A stretch of DNA of 64,000 nucleotides from Deroplatys truncata (Eukaryota; Arthropoda; Insecta; Mantodea; Mantidae), in NCBI GenBank assembly GCA_030765065.1, contig CM060975.1:201290007-201354006 (forward strand), in the 5' to 3' direction. The position numbers were made by a program, and so were the translations under genes. The notes beneath the pieces are model-generated. The model was given only the letters and a program-made list of their open reading frames with translations. It was not told the origin of the DNA and did not search any database. Of the stretch, positions 596-53,447 are shown in pieces. Numbering within the stretch: the stretch's first letter is position 1; the number at the start of each line of letters is the position of its first letter.

Positions 596-1189
596 CTATC
601 TGTTTAAAGATTTCAGCCACTGTACAACACCATTACGTCCTGTAAGCAATGCACAGTCAAGTGGTGTGTTACCATGTGCATTTGCTGCAGAAGTGTCAAA
701 ACCTCTGTTAATTAGCAATTTCACTACTGGAAGATATCCACCATAGCATGCTAAGTGAAGTGGCGTATCATCCATCCTCTCTCTAGAGTCTATTTTGGCC
801 CCATGATCCAACAGCAATTGGCACAGATATTTATCACCTAATTCTGCAGCACAGTGTAGAGGAGTGTATTCTGCCAAGCCTCCAATGTTTACATCCATAC
901 CAAAGTCTAAAAAGAGCTGCACTACACTCAAATGTCCTTCTCTTGCAGCAAGATGAAGCGCAGTATTACTTTGGGTGTCACGTGCTTGCACATCTGTGCC
1001 ATATTCCAACAGCATCTCTACGATTTTCTTATGTCCTATTCTTGCGGCAATGTGCAGTGCTCTTTGGCCTCGGAAGTTATATGTCTCCACATCAGCACTA
1101 AATAATAACAAAAGCTGTGCAGCTGACTGATCTCCCCTTTCTACTGCAGCTAAAAATGCCTGATTCTTTCCACTACTTCCCATAAGTTC
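596..1189 (-). CDS. Ankyrin-repeat protein, terminal exon (gene 1)
   Basis: The exon encodes about six ankyrin repeats of 33 residues, read as a short N-cap (QAFLAAVERGD), four full repeats carrying the TALHLAA / TPLHCAA / TPLHLAC signature, and a C-cap ending in VVQWLKSLNR then TAG. Ankyrin repeats are protein-binding scaffolds, and nothing here identifies the partner. An ATG lies at 1183-1181, but an acceptor (pyrimidine tract then cag) just upstream puts the exon start at 1189 in phase 0, adding Glu-Leu before the Met. The exon is therefore probably the last of a spliced gene, and the candidate exon at 4235-4400 ends in the matching phase. No signal peptide or membrane segment is visible. 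The reading frame is intact, with about 195 codons from the ATG. It is a different protein from the ankyrin protein at 51.7 kb. Confidence 0.85.
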   Translation of the reverse strand, partial: ELMGSSGKNQAFLAAVERGDQSAAQLLLLFSADVETYNFRGQRALHIAARIGHKKIVEMLLEYGTDVQARDTQSNTALHLAAREGHLSVVQLFLDFGMDVNIGGLAEYTPLHCAAELGDKYLCQLLLDHGAKIDSRERMDDTPLHLACYGGYLPVVKLLINRGFDTSAANAHGNTPLDCALLTGRNGVVQWLKSLNR

Positions 1190-1619: not shown

Positions 1620-2876
1620 CGAAGGCAGTCCCAGAAATACCCGACCTGACGTATATATAGTGGTTGTTTCAAACAAATGACTATGGTAGAAAGTACCACT
1701 CTTATAAAGCTTAAGTTTGAAGTTTGATGATGCTATGTTGTTTAGTAATTGTTTGGTAGCCATTAGTAGAGAACTCTCTCAGCAAATTTGTAAACATGGA
1801 TAAAACTGGCCATCGTTATGTAATACAATACTTTCATTTGAAAGGTCTTAGTCCAACTAATATTAAAGCTGAGCTAGATTCTACTCTGGGGGAGTCTGCT
1901 CCTTCGTTTACAACAGTAAATATTGGGTGGCAGAGTTTAAGCAAGGCCGTATAAGCTGCCAAGATGAACATTGCAGTGGTCGACCAAATAAGATGACCAT
2001 GCAGAAATTGTGAAGAAAATCCACAAAATGGTATTGGATGACCGTTGACTGAAAGTGCGCGAGCTAGCACACATCTTAAGCATTTCAAAAAGTGCTATAC
2101 ATTGTACACTAACTGAAAATACAGACATGAGAAAGCTGTGTGCCACGTTTTCTCACAATGGAACAAAAGCAGCATCGTGAGGATGTTTCAGTCGAGTGTT
2201 TGGCGATGTTTTGCTGCAATAAAGCAGAGTTTTTGCATCAATTCATAACCATTAATGAAACATGGGTCCATGACTTTACACCCGAGATGAAGGAATGGTC
2301 AAAACAGTGCATTTAAAGGGGAGAATCAGCTCCAAAGAAGGCGAAGACAGTTCCATTTGCAGGCAAGGTCTGTCAGTTTTTTGGGATGCACGTGGGATAA
2401 TTTTCATCAATTATCTTCATAAAGGAAAATCAATCAATGGCGAGTATTATGCAAACTGATTGCAGCATTTGAATGATGAAATCAAGCAAAAATGGCCGCA
2501 TTTAGCAAAAAAGAAAGTTCTGTTTCATCAAGACAATGCACTAATTCACACATCCATTATTGCAAAAATAAAGGAGTTAAAGTTCAAATTGCTTTCTCAT
2601 GCACCCTATTTGCCAGACTTAGCCTCCGCTGATTATTTTCTGTTTCCAAAGTTGAAGAAATGGCTTGGTGGTAAAAGATTGAAGAGGTGGAGTTTGCAGT
2701 TGATGGATATTTTGCAGAACTCGATGGTTCTCACTATAAACAGGGTATTGAAGCTATTGAACATCGCTGGGAAAAGTGTATCGAGCTGAAAGGGGACTAT
2801 GTAGAGAAATAAAGATTTTGTCCCCAACATTTTTTTGTTTTCTTTGATAGATCGAGTACTTCTGGGACAGCCCTCA
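1620..2876 (+). mobile_element. Mariner-type DNA transposon 1, decayed
   Basis: The element has the standard mariner length (1257 bases) and is flanked by TA at 1618-1619 and 2877-2878. Its terminal inverted repeats of about 28 bases read roughly GAGGGCTGTCCCAGAAGTA from each end. The transposase region runs from an ATG near 1797 to about 2812. The N-terminal helix-turn-helix part (HLKGLSPTNIKAEL) is visible. Of the DD34D catalytic core, HQDNA and the later SADYFLF motif survive, but the first Asp appears as Asn in TINETWVH. At least one single-base loss near 1920 and several stops break the frame, so it cannot encode a full transposase. It sits in the putative intron of ankyrin gene 1. Confidence 0.9.
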
Positions 2877-3307
2877 TATATATAAATTTCTAATTGCTGG
2901 CACATATTAAAGAAAGATTTTTTAACAAACTCTAATAAATGCCTATGCAGCATTCCTCTTTCTCTTCTATACATACTTACTTTCCTACAAAGCCAGTTCC
3001 CAACAAATCTTGTATATGAAAATATGAATGTCAACACTTTGTAAAGCTAGGCATTAGTAAATGCTGTCAATGAACTTGCAAAATTGCATATCTATCTTTT
3101 ACTTATTTTATGGAATAAACATAAAATCTATTTACTTCCACCTTTTGTATGTTATGACAATCAAAACCATGGAATTCATAATAAACAATTCATAAAGTAT
3201 ATAATAAAGTATTTAGTCCAAATGTACTGTTTTTCTTCTACTGTAAAATTAGTAAATATATGTCATTTTCCAAGTTTACTGATATGAACATAATGTACTT
3301 TCTTCAC

Positions 3308-3804
3308 CTGCAATCGCTTCTCTGTACAAACTAGGAACCCCAGTGGTAGCAATAAAGTTCACATTCTCTTTCTTTCTCACATGTAGGAAAAATATCACAG
3401 TTGATAATTTATTCGGAAAATTCATTACACTTTGTTGCAAGGCTGGCATTTGTTTTTTTCTTTTCTTTTAAGTTTCATTTATACCCCACCTTTAACTACA
3501 ATGGTCTAATTAGCCTTTCCTTTGAAACATATTATTGTCTATAGGCAATATGTTGAGCATATTTGCTTGTCACTGGATTTCTGGTAAACTTTGGGTTTTA
3601 TTCATTAGATCACACACACAAATTCACATTCTCAATCATACTTCCAGACCCTGGGGAGGATAGGGAATGATCCTGGCTAGAGAAACATTCCCACCCCCAG
3701 GCAGAATCGAACCTGGAACCCCTTGCACAGCAGGCAGGTGCTCTACTGACTGAGCAACAAAGCCAGCCATTGGCATGTTCTCTAATGTGTTGGTGAAGAA
3801 TATT
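3308..3804 (-). pseudogene. Broken duplicate of the 4235-4400 exon, split by a SINE
   Basis: The outer parts (3308-3449 and 3771-3804) match the exon at 4235-4400, and the flanking intron sequence is also similar: both contain the same AATTCATAATAAACAAT block, and both donors follow TTGCAG or TTGCAG-like ends. This makes a tandem duplication of about 0.9 kb. This copy carries a one-base length difference in the middle of the coding part and a 321-base SINE insertion, so it cannot be read through. The equivalent of the LLPPGLLAHIEKQLQ end is still recognisable in a shifted frame. I infer that this is a dead exon copy. Confidence 0.65.
3450..3770 (-). mobile_element. tRNA-derived SINE
   Basis: On the minus strand the element starts with a tRNA-like head at about 3770-3695. 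It has an A-box-like TTGCTCAGTCAG and a clear B-box GGTTCGATTCT, followed by an unrelated body and an A-rich tail near 3450. A 6-base direct repeat, TGGCAT (3444-3449 and 3771-3776), flanks it as a target-site duplication. It interrupts a duplicated exon copy. Confidence 0.8.
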
Positions 3805-4234
3805 CTGCATCAACTAAGAGATTTTCCATTAAAGAAAAATTAGATCTATATATTAAACTACCATAACAGCAATCAAATAAGTGTTTAATGAAATGAGATG
3901 TATTGTCAATCATGGGATTATAAGCGTTCATGGTGCCATGAAATATAAGAAAAAATAATAAATATGTACAATTAATTACAGTCTCACATTGCCTCGCTTA
4001 ACGCTTGCAAAATTGCTAATTTTAAGAATTAACAAAGTCCATTTACCATTTGCATATAATGACAATCAAAACTATGGAATTCATAATAAACAATACATAA
4101 TGTCTGTAACACAATATTTAGTCTAAATATGTTAAAAAGCTGAATGCAAATGTATTGTTTTTCTTCTATTGTAGAATTAGTGAACATATGTCATTTTCCA
4201 AGTTCATGATATGAATATAATGCACTTTCTTTAC

Positions 4235-9345: not shown

Positions 9346-9360
9346 CACCACATTAACACT

Positions 9361-9780
9361 CCGTAGCTCACACACTCGCCTTCAAACACTACAAATCACT
9401 AGCAAAAACACACCCACACTCCAAAGCGAACACACTCGCCTTCAAACACTACAAATCACTAGCACAAACACACTCACACTCCAAAGCCAACACACTCGCA
9501 ATCAAACACTACAATACACCACCACAAACACACTCAACACCAAAGCTCACACCCACACAGTCACACACTACAACTCACTAGCAAAAACACCTGATTTTTC
9601 AAAGCTCACACACTCGCAGTCACAGACTACAACTCACTAGCAGAAACACACCCACACTCCAAAGCTGACACACCCCCAGTCACAAACTGCTACTCACCAG
9701 CAAAACACACTCAAACTCCAAAGGCCACACACTCGCAATCAAACACTACAACTCACCAGCAAAACACACTCACAGTTCAC
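9361..9780 (+). repeat. 60-base minisatellite, about 7 units
   Basis: Units begin at 9361, 9421, 9481 and so on, with a period of 59-60 bases. The key words are CACACTCGC, AAACACTACAA and ACTAGCAAAAACACAC. Because 60 is a multiple of three, one plus frame gives a 20-residue peptide repeat (HTRLQTLQITS). No start context, splice site or codon bias suggests it is translated. The array is followed by a C-run at 9781. Confidence 0.85.
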
Positions 9781-11197: not shown

Positions 11198-11424
11198 TCA
11201 CTTCAATTTAATTTCGGCATACGCGATAATGAAGGTACATATATCCAATGAAGGTGCGCATGCCGCTGCCAAGAGTGCCATTTTATCCCAATCTTATTTT
11301 AGCCTCTGTGTTCCTGCGGATGATTTTAATCATTACTTAAAGAAGTCTATTTCTCCGGTTGTTTTGGTGCCTGGTCCTCTGTCCAGCACACTCCAATGCT
11401 CACATACACACAAAATCATACACT

Positions 11425-11634
11425 CATGCTCCACAACTCATTAAAACAAACACACACTCAGGCACTACAACTCATTAAAACACACAGCCTCTGGCACTAC
11501 AACTCATTAAAACACACACTCAGGCACTACAACTCATTAAAACACACACACTCAGGCATTACAACTCATTAAAACACACACACTCAGGCATTACAACTCA
11601 TTAAAACACACACACTCAGGCGTTACAACTCATT

Positions 11635-11674
<40 letters not shown>
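11425..11674 (+). repeat. 32-base minisatellite plus (CA)n
   Basis: About seven units of 30-32 bases carry ACAACTCATTAAAACACACA and CTCAGGC, followed by a pure CA run from about 11636 to 11674. Its vocabulary overlaps that of the array at 9361-9780. Confidence 0.9.
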
Positions 11675-15527: not shown

Positions 15528-15611
15528 TTTTTATTTTCCTCTCTGGAACCAAGATCATGAACTCCACCATTGTATTAAAATGCAGTTGAGCAAGCTGAGT
15601 GAACAGTGTTC

Positions 15612-16190
15612 AAGAACAGTGAACAACAATGCTGCCACCGCTTCTGTCTAATAACGTATGCTGCTGGTAATTCACCTAACTTACACGTCTTCTCCAGTTT
15701 CCTATTGCCACGTCATTGCAGTACATTAATACAACAATGTGTGTTTTGTGACTCAAGAACAGTGAACAACAATGCTGCCACCGCTTCTGTCTAATAACGT
15801 ATGCTGCTAGTATTTCACCTAACTTACACGTCTTCTCCAGTTTCCTATTGCCACGTCATTGCAGTACATTAATACAACAATGTGTGTTTTGTGACTCAAG
15901 AACAGTGAACAACAATGCTGCCACCGCTTCTGTCTAATAACGTATGCTGCTAGTATTTCACCTAACTTACACGTCTTCTCCAGTCTCCTATTGCCACGTC
16001 ATTGCAGTACATTAATACAACAATGTGTGTTTTGTGACTCATGGATATTGACAACAATGATGCCACTGTTTTTGTGTTATACGGTATGCTGCTGATATTT
16101 CACCTAATTTACAACAATGTGTGTACGTGGCTCAAGGACAATGAGAACAATGCTGCCACTGCTTCTGTGTAATAACGTATATGTGCGATA
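15612..16190 (+). repeat. 143-base tandem repeat, 3 full and 2 partial units
   Basis: Units start at 15612, 15755 and 15898, exactly 143 bases apart. The second and third differ by about one base. A shortened fourth unit follows from about 16041, and the start of a fifth at about 16136. Each carries ACAATGCTGCCACCGCTTCT and TTGCCACGTCATTGCAGTAC. The array directly precedes the inverted core repeat at 16382-16465. Confidence 0.95.
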
Positions 16191-24545: not shown

Positions 24546-26383
24546 TAAATAATGAATGAATTTACATTGTTAAGAAATGTACGCTTGCTCCGCTCTCATT
24601 CGCGGTGTTAGTCATTCATATACTGGCAGTATTTTGTTTGCACATTTGGAAACTGCATGCAGCTAGAGGGTGACAGCAGTGACAGTAGTAAGACACCACT
24701 TTTCCGAAGCAAATAGGTAAGGTTACCCAAATTTTTATTAGAAATAAAACATATTATATTGGTTAAAAGCAATTTATTTTATGACTCACTATTACTAAAT
24801 AACATACCTAATCAAACAAAATTTAAGTACTGCAGCTTATAAGGAAGTTAAGCCTTTTCTGCATTGGATTGTGCAGTTACACCATAATCAGTGACTTAAT
24901 TTTGTTCATTATGCAAGACAACTGGGACAGTGAAATTCTTAGTCTCCAATTCCTTTTGCTTAATTAGGAAAGCTGCCGCATCAACACAATTATTGTCTTG
25001 TGAAGGCAATAGCAAACTATACCATAACAGTTCTTAAAGCACTGCAAAATTTTAATGCACATGGAATGACATTATTGCCCTTTACTTCTTAAAATAGCAA
25101 ATGTATTCTCAATACAGTCTGGTGTCAGTCTTCTAGTGAAGAGGAAAGTGAAGTCCAATCTTTCATTTAAATCTGACCAGAGTAACTTAAGAGATGGGAT
25201 ATTACCTATCCAACCTTTGGACTGTTTTTCAGGTTAGAAACTTTATTTAACACAATTATTATTTCAAATTATCTTGAATTTCATTTAGCTTCTCTAAATG
25301 TTTGCAGTTAGGCCTATTACAAAATGGTTTTCTGTACTGTTTAGGACTGCTACATTTTGAAGAATTGAAAATGTCAAATAGTGTATCACACATTTCAATT
25401 AAATCAGCTGTGACAGAAGCAGAAGATGGCAAAGAATTGAATGCAACATGTAATTGTATACCAGCTGCCACAGAATGACTCATAGCCCTTACTGTTAAGC
25501 ACACTCTTGTTGGTGTAAATGGAGGAAATGTGATGCATTGTTTTGTTAATTTGGGAGCAAGCCTAGGTATCATTCTTTAATATTTATTAGAAAATTGTTC
25601 AATATGGGTCCAACTACACATTTTCTCTCCCCAGTTAGTCATATTTCTTTAGATTATTTCTCAAGGAGGTTATCGAATGAGGTTCATAAAAAATTATATT
25701 TTCTCACCATTAACTTAAATGTATGGTTTCTCTAAACTCGCCCCTAGAAGTTTTCTCATTTTCACATTAATTGCACCCTGATCACAAACCACAGCTTTGG
25801 ACACACTACCAGTATCCTGAATTTGCACTAAAATTTTAATTCCTCTTGAATACTATCCCATGACATAGCATCCTTGCTAGTAGTAAGCAATAATTTGTTT
25901 AAAATTTAGGAACAAACCTTTAATCATTACCACTATAGCTTGATAGCATAGTGGTCATTCACATACACTTGAATCAGAGATTTCTTGACCAGTGTCTTGA
26001 AACCCTTCAAACATGTCACCCTGTACACTATAAGTCAAAAGTGACTCGAGAGACATTTCATCAGTCACAACTGAAACGACTTTTTTTTTTTTTTTTATGG
26101 TTTCATTTTATCACACTTAAGCTGTAGCAAATCAAGTATATTGTCGACACCAACCTTTACTTCTGCATTTTGTAACCTGTTCCTCAATGATCGAACTGTG
26201 AGTAACCAAAAATATGATCACAAATATCTACATGCCTTAGATGAGCAAAACTGAAGTGCTAAAACAAAATTTCTATCATGTTCCATATACCTTTGCCCCC
26301 AAACCTTTCAGTGTTTAAGAATTGCCTATAGATTAATAAATTTCCATGCTACACCATTACTAGCACAGTTTTATATTTTTGAA

Positions 26384-27888
26384 CGAGGGCAGTCCAGAAA
26401 GTCCCAGACATTTTGGCCTATCGTGGCGATGAGTAGGGCTAGAGCCGCCATCTTGGTGTCAGAACTTTCGTACATTCAGTATGCATCCAGCTGTGGTAGC
26501 GTGATGACTGTGCCTTCCTTACTGTGCTCTCAGTGAGTTGTTAAAATGTACACTGCAATAGAAAATTCTGCCACTTGTGAAGTGCGATCTGTGATTAGGT
26601 TTTTGTTGGCTAAAAAGAACAAACCATTTTATAATAAACCAGAAGTATTGTTTATTGTGATGTTGTATAGTATTTAAAGTTTGAGTTGGCAAATATTGAT
26701 TCACATCACATACATGCGCTAGTTGTTACCGTAGGAGCGCATGTATGTGATGTGAATCAATATTTGCCAACTCAAACTTTAAATAAAAAAAAAGAACAAA
26801 CCAATTGAAATTTATCATCAACTTTGTGGTGTTTACGGGCAGGGAATAATGAGTGAAAGCCGAGTCAGGCAATGGTGCATTGATTTTAAAAATAGCCGTA
26901 CCAATGTTCATAACAAGGATCGCAGTGGTAGGCCTAGCCTTATGACTGATGAACTGTCAATGCAAGTCAATGACAAAATTCGTGAAAATCATCGTTTCAC
27001 AATTACAGAAGTTTCGGAGCATTTTCCCCAAATTTCATGAAGTTTGGTGCATAAAATTGTGGTGGAGAAGCTTGGTTACCACAAATTTTGTGCTAGGTGG
27101 GATCTGAAAATCCTAACGGAAGACCATAAAAAAAAACAGAGGCTGGCTGCAGCACTGACCTTCCTCCAAGATTTCAACGAATATGGTAACGCTTTACTCG
27201 ATCGTATTGTAACCGGGGACGAGACTTGGGTGAAGCATGTCAATTGTGAAACAAAACAGCAGTCAATGGAATGGGGACACACACATTCTCCCAAGAAACC
27301 AAGAAAGTGTTTGCAAACGCTGTCAGCAAGAAAGGTCATGGCTACTGTGTTTTGGGACTCTAAGGGAGTGCTTCTCGTTGAGTTTCTGGAATGTGGAACA
27401 ACAATAACCTCAGAGAGGTATTGTGAAACACTATGAAAGTTAAGGCGTGCCATACAAAATAAGCGTTGAGGAAAACTTAGTACCGAGGTGTTGTTTCTTC
27501 ACGACAATGCACACCCACACTTGGCCAATCGTACCCGAACACTCTTGGATGGGAGGTGTGTGACCATCCACCATACAGCCCGGATTTGGCGCCGAACGAC
27601 TACCGCCTCTTACCAGCAATGAAGAAATGGCTCGGTACACAACGCTTTGATACTGACACTGAACTGCATGCCAGCGTAAACCAGTGGTTGAAGCCGCAGG
27701 CGGCAGATTTCTACAGAGAGGATATTGAAAAACTTGTGCCACAGTATGATTAATGCCTCAATTTGAATGGCGATTATGTAGAAAAATAGCTTAAGAGTTT
27801 ACCTTTCAAATGTACATAATAAACGTTGATATTTGCATTTTGTTAATTGTTTATTTCAAAACGTCTGGGACTTTCTGGATTACTCTCG
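26384..27888 (+). mobile_element. Mariner-type DNA transposon 2, decayed, inside the P-like element
   Basis: The ends are inverted copies carrying TCCAGAAAGTCCCAGAC. A TA follows the right end (27889-27890) and the left target has decayed. The transposase begins MYTAIENSATCEVR near 26546 and continues past a 162-base insertion with EIYHQLCGVYGQGIMSESR. The DD34D residues are visible as IVTGDETW, FLHDNAHPH and SPDLAPNDY. A stop near 27040 and frame changes near 27440-27560 break it. It lies between the THAP part and the catalytic part of the P-like transposon, so it inserted after that element. Confidence 0.9.
26627..26788 (+). mobile_element. 162-base insertion with a perfect 49-base inverted repeat
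   Basis: The arms 26672-26720 and 26736-26784 are exact reverse complements, separated by a 15-base loop. A 15-base direct repeat (AAAAAGAACAAACCA at 26612-26626 and 26789-26803) flanks the insertion, and the 3' side runs into nine A residues. Direct repeats plus an A-run point to reverse-transcribed insertion, and the perfect arms indicate a recent origin. A related loop-plus-arm sequence lies at 29577-29640. Confidence 0.85.
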
Positions 27889-29399
27889 TAAATTCTCAGT
27901 AACTGGACATCATTTTCTGCAACACTCTATACTTCATTTTGAACTTTAAACATTCTTTACGTGTACATATATATTCATCTTTGAAACTGTCAGTGCCGCC
28001 CCAGATAACCTACGGCATTAGTCATTGTTTCAGATCCATCTCATCTTCCCTCTTTCTTTTTCTTTTCTTTGGGCTTCGTCTTGAGTTTAGTTTTCTTTGC
28101 AATAGGAAAAATTGAAGGCACAGAACCTGGCCAGATCCTAGAAGAGGAATTGAAGTGTTATTTAATACAACCTGACTATCCTAAACCAATTCTTTCTTTA
28201 TATTTGATAGTTAATTGAAACATACACAGAATATAAATTAACCAACTCAAAATAAAATAATTATTGGTAATACAATCTATGCACTGGTATAAGGCCATGC
28301 AGAAAGGTGATTTCGGGATTGGTCTCCATTTAGAAAGAAACCAGCAAGTTAGGAAGTGAAATATTGTAATGCAGTATGTAATAAAGTAAGCTATTTGCAC
28401 AATTTAAAATTGTAAAGTACAATTCTCTATTAAAAAACATTTTACCCTCATCAAATCATCATTTTAAAAATAAAGGGCACAGTCCTGAAAATGTTTAGCT
28501 ATACAGGGCCTACCCACATTACAGATGAAGTTGTATTGCTGAAATCCATACTAACCTTTAAAATATTCCACAATATGTGTCCTTATTCTTTTTTAGAATA
28601 TCTCTAAATTTTATAAAATATTTGTACTATAATAAATACTTACCCTTGGTTTAACAATTTTTTTTTCTTTCTGAAGTCTTTCTGTTCAAACCGATCTGAG
28701 CATACTACGTAACTTTTATCAAATACTCTGGTCCATTTTGTTTAAAAGCATCATCAAGGTCTGTTCTGTAACCCGTTGTTTAGCCTAAAGGAAACAGTAA
28801 AAACTCAGTTAAAATGTGGTCATTAATATAGACATATTGAAAAATATCAAAATATATGCATAATTAAAACAGAAAACCAAAATAACCTCACTTTAGAAGC
28901 CATACTTACATTTCTTTATTTCTTGGAAACCCATAGAAAGATTTTGGATTGCTTTGTTGTCTGTAATTATTACATCCATTTATGGCACAAATACTTCCTC
29001 TTCCACCCACTTTTATGTTGTTAACATATCAAATTGTTTTTATTTATATCGCCTTCATACTGAATAAATATAGCTGATAGGGGACGGAATGTAAATGTTC
29101 ACTTTGTGCCACTAGAGTGAGTAGGTATCACTGACCCAATTGTTTAGATAGAGTTTCTACTATTATCTTTATAAGCTATTTGCTAATACCAGCACATTCT
29201 TATACACCTGCACCAGTTGAGTGTGCTCTCCGAACTAATTCAGAATTTTGTGTGGTTAGAACACTGCTTGAACCATTCTGTCATGGCTTTCTTCATTCCA
29301 CAGCATCAATTACATATTCAAATTTATTCCTCCAGGTAACAAGGTTTTTTCTGCTGAATACAGAGAGTATATCACTTTCTCTGTACTCTCTGGCAAGTT

Positions 29400-29755
29400 T
29401 GTTCCAAGCGATTAGATTTGATTCTGAATTAAACTGAGTATGCACAGTAGACTATAAAATTTGCACATGTCCAGAGTTTTCAGTTCCTATTCTTGATCAA
29501 GAACCAGTTTCACTCGTGCCAAACAAGTTCCCAAATACGTTGGAATAGCAAGTTGGAATTTAAAATTTTTTGAGTTAGAAAATGTAAATTCCCATCACAT
29601 ATGTGCGCTAGATGTTATCGCAGGAGCGCTTTCGAGAGATGTTTCTCCCATTGGAAACTCAGAACTAGTTCTGAACTGATTATCTGTTGTGTTGGAATGC
29701 CACTTAGCTACTGCGCATACTCAGATAATTCAGAACTGATTCTGAATTGTGTGGA
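29400..29755. repeat. Imperfect inverted repeat containing the hairpin-core sequence
   Basis: Left words TTCTGAATTAAACTGAGTAT and CACAGTAG (29420-29450) recur inverted at about 29705-29745. The centre (29577-29640) matches one arm and the loop of the hairpin inserted at 26627-26788 (CACATATGTGCGCTAGATG, then TTATCGCAGGAGCGC). A 14-base palindrome CAGAACTAGTTCTG lies near 29663. This looks like a short non-autonomous transposon, diverged. Confidence 0.5.
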
Positions 29756-29902
29756 AAGAAAGCAATAGAAATTGCAGGCAAAGCATCCCCAACCGGCAGC
29801 CTTTGTACAGTACCAAACACTTGATCCCTACCTTCCCTAATGCAACCACCATAAACATCTTAGGAAAAAAGGATGTGCACATTGTTGCCATGGTTAAAAA
29901 AA

Positions 29903-51060: not shown

Positions 51061-51665
51061 AGTACCCCAAGGTAAAAGCTGTAGGTCATCTCATTCCATC
51101 AACATCAGAAGTAATCAACACTTCCTGCAATTGTAAAAGTGAGTTCAGTCATTGTTTGAAGGGACAAGGTTCTGCCAAACATCGTAGTAGAACATACAGG
51201 GAGCATGGGAAACAGCAAACATTAGGAAGAAGTACTGAAGGATGTATATACACAATTGCCAAAGTGTTAATACCATAATGTGCCAAGAACATAACACTGC
51301 CATATAGAATCTACATTCTACTAAGAGCTTACATGATTACTAAGTAACCATGTCCATGACTTTGCCCTCAGCAGCTTTGAAATTTTGCGAGTTGCAGGAA
51401 GTTTGAAATTACACAAATATAAATTCAAAGTTAAAACACTATATACAATATGGAAATCAAGATGGTGTAAATAAAAACAATAATCATGGGGACAAAATTC
51501 TGCACTTTATATGTAATTCTTTGTCCTACTGCAAGTCACCCACATTGAATTTGATGATCACTCGGTATGTTAAAAGCAATCAAAATCAGTAGCCTAATTT
51601 TTTTGGATAAATTTTATTACACATTGTATAATAAAATATGACTTGCTTCCTTATTAATGTTTCAG

Positions 51666-53447
51666 GAGAATGCGACAAATAAAGATGCCATGAAAGATGC
51701 AGTTGAACAACTATTTACCTACTCCAGGAATGGAAATGAAGCAGAAGTGAAGTCTCTCGTAGCATCAGGAGTAGATGTGAATGTTATAGATGACAAAGGG
51801 ATGAGTCCTCTACATTATGCAGCCCAATATGGACATATTACAATATGTGTTCATCTTATCAACAAGGGGACAAATGTTAATGCTGGTGAAAATGCTGCCA
51901 CACCTCTTCATCTAGCATGTTCCAAGGGACATCTTGCTATAATAGCTCTTCTGGTTACTCACGGTGCTCTAGTTGATGTATTAGATTCAGATATCTTTAC
52001 TCCACTACATTATGCAGCAAAACATGGGCATGTGAAAACATGTCAGCTTCTTTTCAAAATGGGAGCAAATGTTAACGTTATAGGTGACAATAACATCACT
52101 CCCCTTCACTTGGCATGTTCTGAGGACAAACTTGAAGTACTAAAACTGCTGATTTCGCATAATGCTTCAGTGGAATTATGTGACTCGAATAGGAACACAC
52201 CTTTACATTATGCAGCTCAGCATGGGCATGCAGAGGTCTGCAGCCAGCTTATTAACAAGGGAGCAAAAATTAATGTTGAAAATAAACTGGGTTTCACACC
52301 ACTTCACTGGGCTTGTTCTAAAGGTAATCTCTCTCTTGTAAAACTCTTTCTTTCTCATGGTGCTATGTTGGAGTCACGTGATTCAAAAAAGTGTACTCCT
52401 CTACTTCATGCAGCAAAACTTGGATTTTTAGGAATATGTGACCACCTTATCAACAAAGGAGCAAGTATGGTTGCTGTAGATGATAAGGGTATGACATCTC
52501 TGCACTGGGCGTGTTCTAATGGACATTTTCCAGTAGTAAAACTGCTCACTTCTCGTGGTGCCTCATTGGAGTTAGGCAATTCATCCAATAACACTGCTCT
52601 GAATCTTGCAGCAATTGGTGGACATTTTGCAATATGTGAACACCTTCTGAATATGGGGGCAGATGTTAATGTTAGAGGTAGCAATGATACCACACCCTTA
52701 TGGCAAGCTGCTTTTGCAGGATATCTTCCTGTAGTAGAACTGTTTACTTCTCATGGTGCTTCAATTGACTTATGTGGCAAAGACAAATTCACACCTTTAC
52801 ATTGTGCAGCCCACGAGGGACATGTAACAACATGTGAACATCTGATCAACAAGGGAGCAAATGTTAATGCTGTTGGAGGTTCCAGCAATGTCACACCCTT
52901 GCATATGGCGTGTATAAATGGACATCTTCAAGTAGTAGAGCTGCTCATTGCTCATGGTGCTTCAGTTGAGAAGCTCAACTCAAACAACAACACTCCTCTA
53001 CACAATGCTGCAGGAAATGGACATGTAGCAGTTTGCGAGTATCTCCTGGATAAGGGGGCAGATGTTGATGCTGGTGACACTGTCACTCCCCTTCATGTTG
53101 CATGCATAGGAGGAGATCTTGCTATAGTAGATCTCCTCACTTCTCGTGGTGCTTCAATTAATTCATGTGACTCAATAAATGACACGGCTCTACATTATGC
53201 AGCAAAACGTGGACATGTAGGAATATGTGACCATCTCATCAAGAAAGGAGCAAATGTTAATGCTGGGGGTAACAATAATTCCACACCACTGCACCTGGCA
53301 TGTTGTGAAGGGCATCTTCCTGTAGCAAAGCTGCTTGTTGCAAATGGTGCTTCAGTTGAGGTATACAACTCAAACAACAAAGCTGCTCTGGACTTGGCAA
53401 CAAGTGGTGGACATAAGTCTGTTTGTGCTTACTTAAAATCCATTTAA
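51666..53447 (+). CDS. Ankyrin-repeat protein with eight A/B double repeats, terminal exon (gene 2)
   Basis: A strong acceptor (TTAATGTTTCAG) precedes the exon at 51666 in phase 0. An in-frame ATG at 51657 lies inside the acceptor tract and is probably not used, so upstream exons are expected but were not found. The exon encodes about 593 residues: an N-cap repeat to residue ~48 (numbered from that ATG), sixteen full ankyrin repeats and a C-cap, ending TAA. Odd repeats follow TPLHYAAxxGHxxxC then INKGANVNA. Even repeats follow TPLHLACxxGHL then SHGASVELxxSN. This gives a 66-residue (198-base) super-repeat eight times over. The frame is intact throughout. Ankyrin stacks of this size bind proteins, and no enzymatic or membrane domain is attached in this exon. 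A cytosolic scaffold is inferred. Confidence 0.9.
   Translation, partial: ENATNKDAMKDAVEQLFTYSRNGNEAEVKSLVASGVDVNVIDDKGMSPLHYAAQYGHITICVHLINKGTNVNAGENAATPLHLACSKGHLAIIALLVTHGALVDVLDSDIFTPLHYAAKHGHVKTCQLLFKMGANVNVIGDNNITPLHLACSEDKLEVLKLLISHNASVELCDSNRNTPLHYAAQHGHAEVCSQLINKGAKINVENKLGFTPLHWACSKGNLSLVKLFLSHGAMLESRDSKKCTPLLHAAKLGFLGICDHLINKGASMVAVDDKGMTSLHWACSNGHFPVVKLLTSRGASLELGNSSNNTALNLAAIGGHFAICEHLLNMGADVNVRGSNDTTPLWQAAFAGYLPVVELFTSHGASIDLCGKDKFTPLHCAAHEGHVTTCEHLINKGANVNAVGGSSNVTPLHMACINGHLQVVELLIAHGASVEKLNSNNNTPLHNAAGNGHVAVCEYLLDKGADVDAGDTVTPLHVACIGGDLAIVDLLTSRGASINSCDSINDTALHYAAKRGHVGICDHLIKKGANVNAGGNNNSTPLHLACCEGHLPVAKLLVANGASVEVYNSNNKAALDLATSGGHKSVCAYLKSI

Follow-up and report, generated by a model that had tools for sequence, protein, structure and literature searches.

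The perfect hairpin in the window, the whole analysed stretch of 64,000 nucleotides of Deroplatys truncata DNA, is very probably a minimal insertion of a Penelope-like element (PLE), consisting of two cDNAs of one stretch of RNA that were started at two internal sites, A and B, and joined head to head. The hairpin has the sequence of a PLE family, a target duplication, and one tailed and one tail-less end; across the family the outer starts are fixed and the inner junction is variable.

The hairpin and its target site

The arms of the hairpin (26671-26720 and 26736-26785) are exact reverse complements of 50 bp each, separated by a loop of 15 nt. The first-pass annotation, made from the letters of the window alone, had described a perfect hairpin of 26672-26720 and 26736-26784 with a 15-nt loop, and the pairing is exact for one base more on each side (26671/26785). 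The only other exact inverted repeat in the window with at least 14 bp and arms at most 200 nt apart is 14 bp long. The RNA fold of the hairpin has an energy of -87.9 kcal/mol (z = -16), and 0 of 200 shuffles gave an equally good fold. An Rfam search of the window gave no match.

The hairpin interrupts a dead mariner with TIRs of 33 nt (26383-26415 and 27857-27889, 88% identity) and a Transposase_1 match (E = 4e-17) in 27044-27433. The sequence AAAAAGAACAAACCA (15 nt) is found on both sides of the insertion, and both copies translate to KKNKP in the mariner frame (...LLAKKNKP and KKNKPIEIYHQ...). AAAAAGAACAAACCA is therefore a target duplication, as the 15-base direct repeats had been interpreted from the start. 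The A-run reported together with them is real and comprises 26785-26788, followed by the five As that open the second copy of the duplication. Comparison with the genome relatives reveals that 26627-26670 is also part of the insertion and equals the PLE tail. The features are as follows.

26383..27889, + strand: host mariner, dead, interrupted by the insertion (TIRs and Transposase_1 match)
26612..26626, no strand: target-site duplication copy 1, AAAAAGAACAAACCA (KKNKP in the mariner frame)
26627..26670, - strand (RNA sense): PLE tail, its outer edge 26627 being the putative start site A of reverse transcription (tail at exactly one end in 54/54 two-armed insertions)
26671..26740, - strand: pseudo-LTR piece of the tailed cDNA (left arm, loop and GAGCGC), reference 45-114 (genome copies)
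26721..26735, no strand: 15-nt loop between the arms
26736..26785, + strand: tail-less cDNA (right arm), reference 45-94, its outer edge being the putative start site B of reverse transcription (tail-less starts at 42-48 in 46/48)
26786..26788, no strand: extra As at the tail-less end (gap of 3)
26789..26803, no strand: target-site duplication copy 2
29569..29651, - strand: remnant of an older pseudo-LTR from this PLE family, without a visible inverted partner (85% to L012 over 85 nt)

The older fragment at 29569-29651 resembles the left arm and the loop and then runs on. Its right flank has no significant similarity to the right arm of the hairpin (p=0.18) and no hairpin fold was found for the fragment (z=-1.7). 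Since it has the arm and the loop without a right arm, the right arm of the hairpin looked new. The fragment is enclosed by a foldback (MITE-like) element at 29410-29760 with inverted repeats of about 29 nt (29422-29450 and 29708-29735).

Elsewhere in the window there are two uninterrupted ankyrin-repeat frames, 51657-53447 (+ strand, 596 aa, Ank E=4.1e-126) and 596-1183 (- strand, 195 aa, Ank E=1.8e-40), and tandem arrays of 60-bp units (9349-9774), 32-bp units (11420-11647) and 143-bp units (15610-16113).

Family identity

The source assembly (4.29 Gb, 818 contigs) was searched with the 162-nt insertion, and the 40 scored of 912 candidates gave at least 90 matches. These were whole-query hairpins with 79-92% identity and copies of query 1-114 only, that is the tail, the left arm and the loop, with 96-99% identity. 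The fetched copies have a common plan: a target-site duplication (TSD), the tail and pseudo-LTR (pLTR) beginning TTTTATAATAAACC..., a variable middle, an inverted pLTR ending CTTTAAA(TA), and the TSD again. The middle ranges from no loop at all (L076) to about 2.5 kb (L022).

The longer members L012 and L022 carry inverted pLTRs. L022 has an RVT_1 match (E=1.1e-9; 3424-3834, - strand) and after it one to GIY-YIG (E=1.5e-5; 2416-3420, - strand), both above the Pfam curated cut-offs and located in two neighbouring reading-frame pieces, where GLAMGNPLSP and YVDD are visible. L012 has a weaker RVT_1 match below the cut-off (E=3e-4), and GIY-YIG matches were also found in L030 and L032. The combination of RT and GIY-YIG, inverted pLTRs, tail and TSDs identifies the family as a PLE. 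Judged by sequence identity the hairpin in the window is a member of this family, the window copy itself being non-coding. The earlier proposal of an RNA-mediated insertion with target duplication is supported.

L012 and L030 gave seven matches each up to E=10, with no hammerhead family among them, and the family may differ in this from canonical EN-bearing PLEs. A core of the form CTGAAGA - stem - GAAA, a putative hammerhead motif, was seen by eye only.

The longer members have the order arm, GCGC, loop, GCGC and then continue into TTTCGAGAGATTTG..., not into a right arm. The right arm in the window therefore most likely arose at insertion.

Three copies have additional features. A PLE insertion of 2.8 kb (L022:2255-5088) reads through the upstream pLTR including its tail, as a tandem-repeat transcript would give. 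The tail of the PLE hairpin at L073:150-360 is interrupted by what seems, by eye, to be the hairpin's left flank in reverse complement; a subsequent template switch across the palindrome that brought in adjacent DNA would give such a structure. The PLE hairpin at L023:4940-5150 is located within sequence that by eye resembles a tRNA gene or a tRNA-derived SINE (GTAGCTCAGACAGTAGAGCAAC).

In public sequence collections, degenerate loop patterns gave 0 matches in viral_contigs. Shorter loop patterns matched one Mycoplasma MAG, in what by eye resembles a phosphofructokinase gene, and gave two matches in viral contigs; by eye the surroundings were unlike the insertion and the matches were set aside as chance.

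Tail at one end of two-armed insertions

The sample comprised 72 loci (L004-L008 and L010-L076), where L004 is the window copy and L009 was left out as the same place as L012. An end was called tailed if its reference start was at most 12, and at each locus the script selected the two ends whose shared flank was longest. Two arms were found in 54 of the 72 loci, and all 54 had one tailed and one tail-less end. The script assigned 48 of these; L044 was assigned by eye, and L072-L076 were added with TSDs read by eye (one mismatch in L073). The remaining 18 loci were 14 with one end only in the fetched stretch, three single-armed insertions with TSD (L034 tail-less, L037 and L043 tailed) and the ambiguous L057.

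Because the first genome query contained the tail, loci obtained with tail-blind queries were counted separately. These queries gave 58 loci, of which 40 were two-armed and all 40 one-tailed. The 40 comprise 22 from one list (including the window copy, whose sequence was the query), 13 from the first 20 new loci of a second list, and L072-L076, chosen for being close pairs or hairpins. With L072-L076 set aside, 35 of 35 are one-tailed, which under a random choice of start by each strand has p about 6e-11.

Genome-wide, 84 of 180 exact pLTR ends had an exact tail. In a subset of these ends, the first 100, neighbours less than 5 kb apart were head-to-head in 27 cases, direct in two and tail-to-tail in none. 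Exactly one exact tail was present in 21 of the head-to-head pairs, none in five and two in one. The five pairs without an exact tail (L063, L064, L017, L045 and L072) are one-tailed by alignment. The pair with two tails includes the internal pLTR of L022, the outer ends of which have a TSD and are one-tailed; L022 was counted by its longest-TSD pair, and the alternative pair with the internal pLTR would be two-tailed with a match of only 4 nt.

Some of the 54 assignments are weak. The exact TSD is only 5 in L018 and L065, and L058 is uncheckable, with a tail arm of 20 nt at the edge of the stretch. The tail-less arm is short in L044 (about 13 nt) and L048 (about 19 nt), the tail starts at reference 8 in L053 and 5 in L074, and the tail-less start is 37 in L016 and L062.

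Start sites and target

The tailed ends of the 48 scripted insertions begin at reference 1 in 42 cases and at 2, 3 or 8 in six. The tail-less ends begin at 42-48 in 46 cases; the other two begin at 37, with edges blurred by A/T runs. An exact TSD of at least 8 was found in 45 of the 48 (range 8-16) with a mode of 12 (22/48), and the window copy has 15; numerous loci that share the arm and have direct repeats, which the first-pass annotation had proposed to look for, thus exist. In these 45 insertions the tail-less end overlaps the target in 25, is flush in three and has extra, mostly A, bases in 17, one of which is the window copy.

Beyond site A, L022 and L071 agree at 179 of 190 nt. Genomic copies thus extend past site A, which argues that it is not the poly(A) end of a transcript. 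Nor is the A-run a poly(A) tail, since the extra bases at the tail-less end occur in only 17/45 and copies continue beyond the other start site. The left part of the insertion was at first taken for an mRNA end (AATAAA, poly(A)) and the event for L1 twin priming, and this was overturned by the genome copies.

Outside the TSD and in the primer direction, both cut sites favour a purine, followed by T in 51-56% and a second T in 62% (n=45), a raw target composition in which the TSD edges may be off by a few bases. For the Anolis PLE an ATT motif is reported to be cut most often on each strand (PMC11167929). The RNA fold around the start sites showed nothing unusual (z=0.28).

Proposed mechanism and joining of the arms

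An endonuclease would have cut both target strands, here 15 bp apart, and each exposed 3' end would have primed reverse transcription within the element RNA. The tail's outer edge (site A) would have been the start of one cDNA; the second would have begun at site B, which lies about 45 nt upstream on the RNA. Both cDNAs would have been short, covering reference 1-114 and 45-94 with an overlap of 50 nt, and joining of their 3' ends head to head at the GCGC tetramer would give a perfect hairpin; a hairpin form of the RNA itself would be unnecessary. The As at 26786-26788 may be due to slippage or untemplated addition. Purified PLE protein of Anolis cuts and extends both strands in vitro and initiates at two adjacent internal RNA sites bounding the tail (PMC11167929).

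The alternative that survives best, although it is improbable, is self-priming, in which one cDNA with its end at GGAGCGC folded back at GCGC and served as its own template for the second arm. Palindromic head-to-head junctions have been read in a similar way in Penelope families of Adineta vaga (PMC3846280). The junction in the window does lie on GCGC...GCGC. The 30-mer with the private C of the window copy occurs exactly twice in the genome, once per arm (by exact match, so that further-changed copies are missed), and a private variant shared by the arms agrees with a single template RNA, and also with one arm having been copied from its partner. Copy-back of a tailed cDNA would, however, enter the tail, and the second arm instead ends near site B beside the TSD. 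The 94/114 join (+-1), which a query with the window's own hairpin favours finding, has the long arm on the tailed side in L004, L005 and L006 and the short arm there in L007, L011, L024, L072 and L073. A tail-less fold-back cannot make a tail, and with the tailed arm both long and short a single cDNA copying itself back is strained. Self-priming, the reading given to the Adineta vaga palindromes, does not fit five of these eight joins.

The divergence of the arms is 2.4% on average within insertions and 6.4% between them (41 insertions with at least 30 shared positions); the two arms thus mostly share a template. In L005, L018 and L045 the arms of other insertions are closer than the own partner in 19, 20 and 25 of 40 comparisons, which hints at two templates or later mutation. 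At least 4 nt are shared at 13 of 26 inner joins (39 loci given) compared with 19.5% of 400 simulated blunt joins, and the full distribution does not differ from the simulation (p=0.18), so microhomology at the inner joins is suggestive only.

It is rather more probable than its opposite that double initiation is obligate, such that in each two-armed insertion one strand primes at A and the other at B, and the two strands never share a site. A one-tailed inverted pLTR structure would then be the scar of two coupled target-primed reactions and not a transcript property. The coupled reactions would perhaps be performed one per subunit of a dimer, and the micro-hairpins would be products whose two cDNAs stopped early.

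Other explanations of the hairpin

Retrocopying of a polyadenylated hairpin RNA by L1-like machinery would explain the A-run, the 15-bp TSD and the CT/AAAAAG at the left edge of the duplication. A retrocopy of a hairpin-RNA gene had been suggested in the first-pass annotation, and it is largely refuted by the family structure, where the longer members run from the arm through the loop and onward without entering a right arm. The same two outer ends also enclose middles ranging from no loop (L076) to about 2.5 kb (L022), and the tail-less ends vary between overlap, flush ends and extra bases as given above, making such an origin very unlikely.

An internally deleted DNA transposon or MITE with long TIRs is equally unlikely. 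Inverted ends, a TSD and short forms without the middle are all present, but the ends are unequal with a tail on one only, TSD length is not fixed, single-armed insertions with TSD exist and the long member encodes RT and GIY-YIG. The case of a MITE with TA or 8-base duplications, named earlier as one that would count against an RNA-mediated origin, does not apply. Template switching in DNA replication at an old single-armed copy is the least credible explanation. Hairpins are reported to be created in this way (PMC8794818), but at dozens of unrelated loci the second arm stops next to the TSD, near site B.

Comparison with known systems

The family is most readily compared with Poseidon of Anolis (PAc; PMC11167929), which likewise has RT followed by GIY-YIG, pLTRs and a tail, of 30-40 bp compared with about 44 nt here. 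Also shared are two internal starts of reverse transcription bounding the tail, AT-rich targets, and cutting and extension of both strands. In vitro no difference in start site between the strands is reported for PAc, whereas here each two-armed insertion has one A and one B.

The Penelope families of Adineta vaga (PMC3846280) share the inverted pLTRs and the palindromes at head-to-head junctions, and have a 31-bp tail on one pLTR and TSDs of 8-10 bp. Their tail is called optional, in contrast to the family studied here with a tail at exactly one end in all 54 two-armed insertions.

L1 twin or dual priming (PMC2837659, PMC12016303) also yields two opposite cDNAs, one per target strand, and overlap at the inversion can occur, with a median of 12 bp in an L1 set compared with 50 nt here. 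In L1 the poly(A) is where one cDNA starts, and the second begins internally at a position that varies, whereas both starts are fixed and internal here. The twin-priming product proposed in the first-pass annotation was thus close to the mechanism in its two opposed cDNAs and departs from it in the start sites, neither of which is a poly(A).

Meaning of the pattern

The insertion itself is of a known kind, a minimal PLE insertion that is unusual for its small size and clean structure. Inverted pLTR pairs of which one carries a tail have been described before (PMC3846280); a statement that the tail sits at exactly one end of every two-armed insertion was not found in the literature searched. 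Short hairpins are common products: among 34 tail-blind two-armed insertions (without L072-L076 and L044), 21 have arms no more than 20 nt apart where they join.

PLE palindromes are possible sources of double-stranded RNA, and siRNAs of D. virilis are thought to derive from inverted repeats in Penelope transcripts (PMC3136932). The PLE steps that follow two-strand cutting and the two starts in vitro are, according to the authors, still to be validated (PMC11167929). The genome is a record of finished PLE insertions, and the one-tail pattern in it indicates joint use of the two start sites, one on each strand. The pattern bears on how PLEs insert, and in-vitro work can test it directly.
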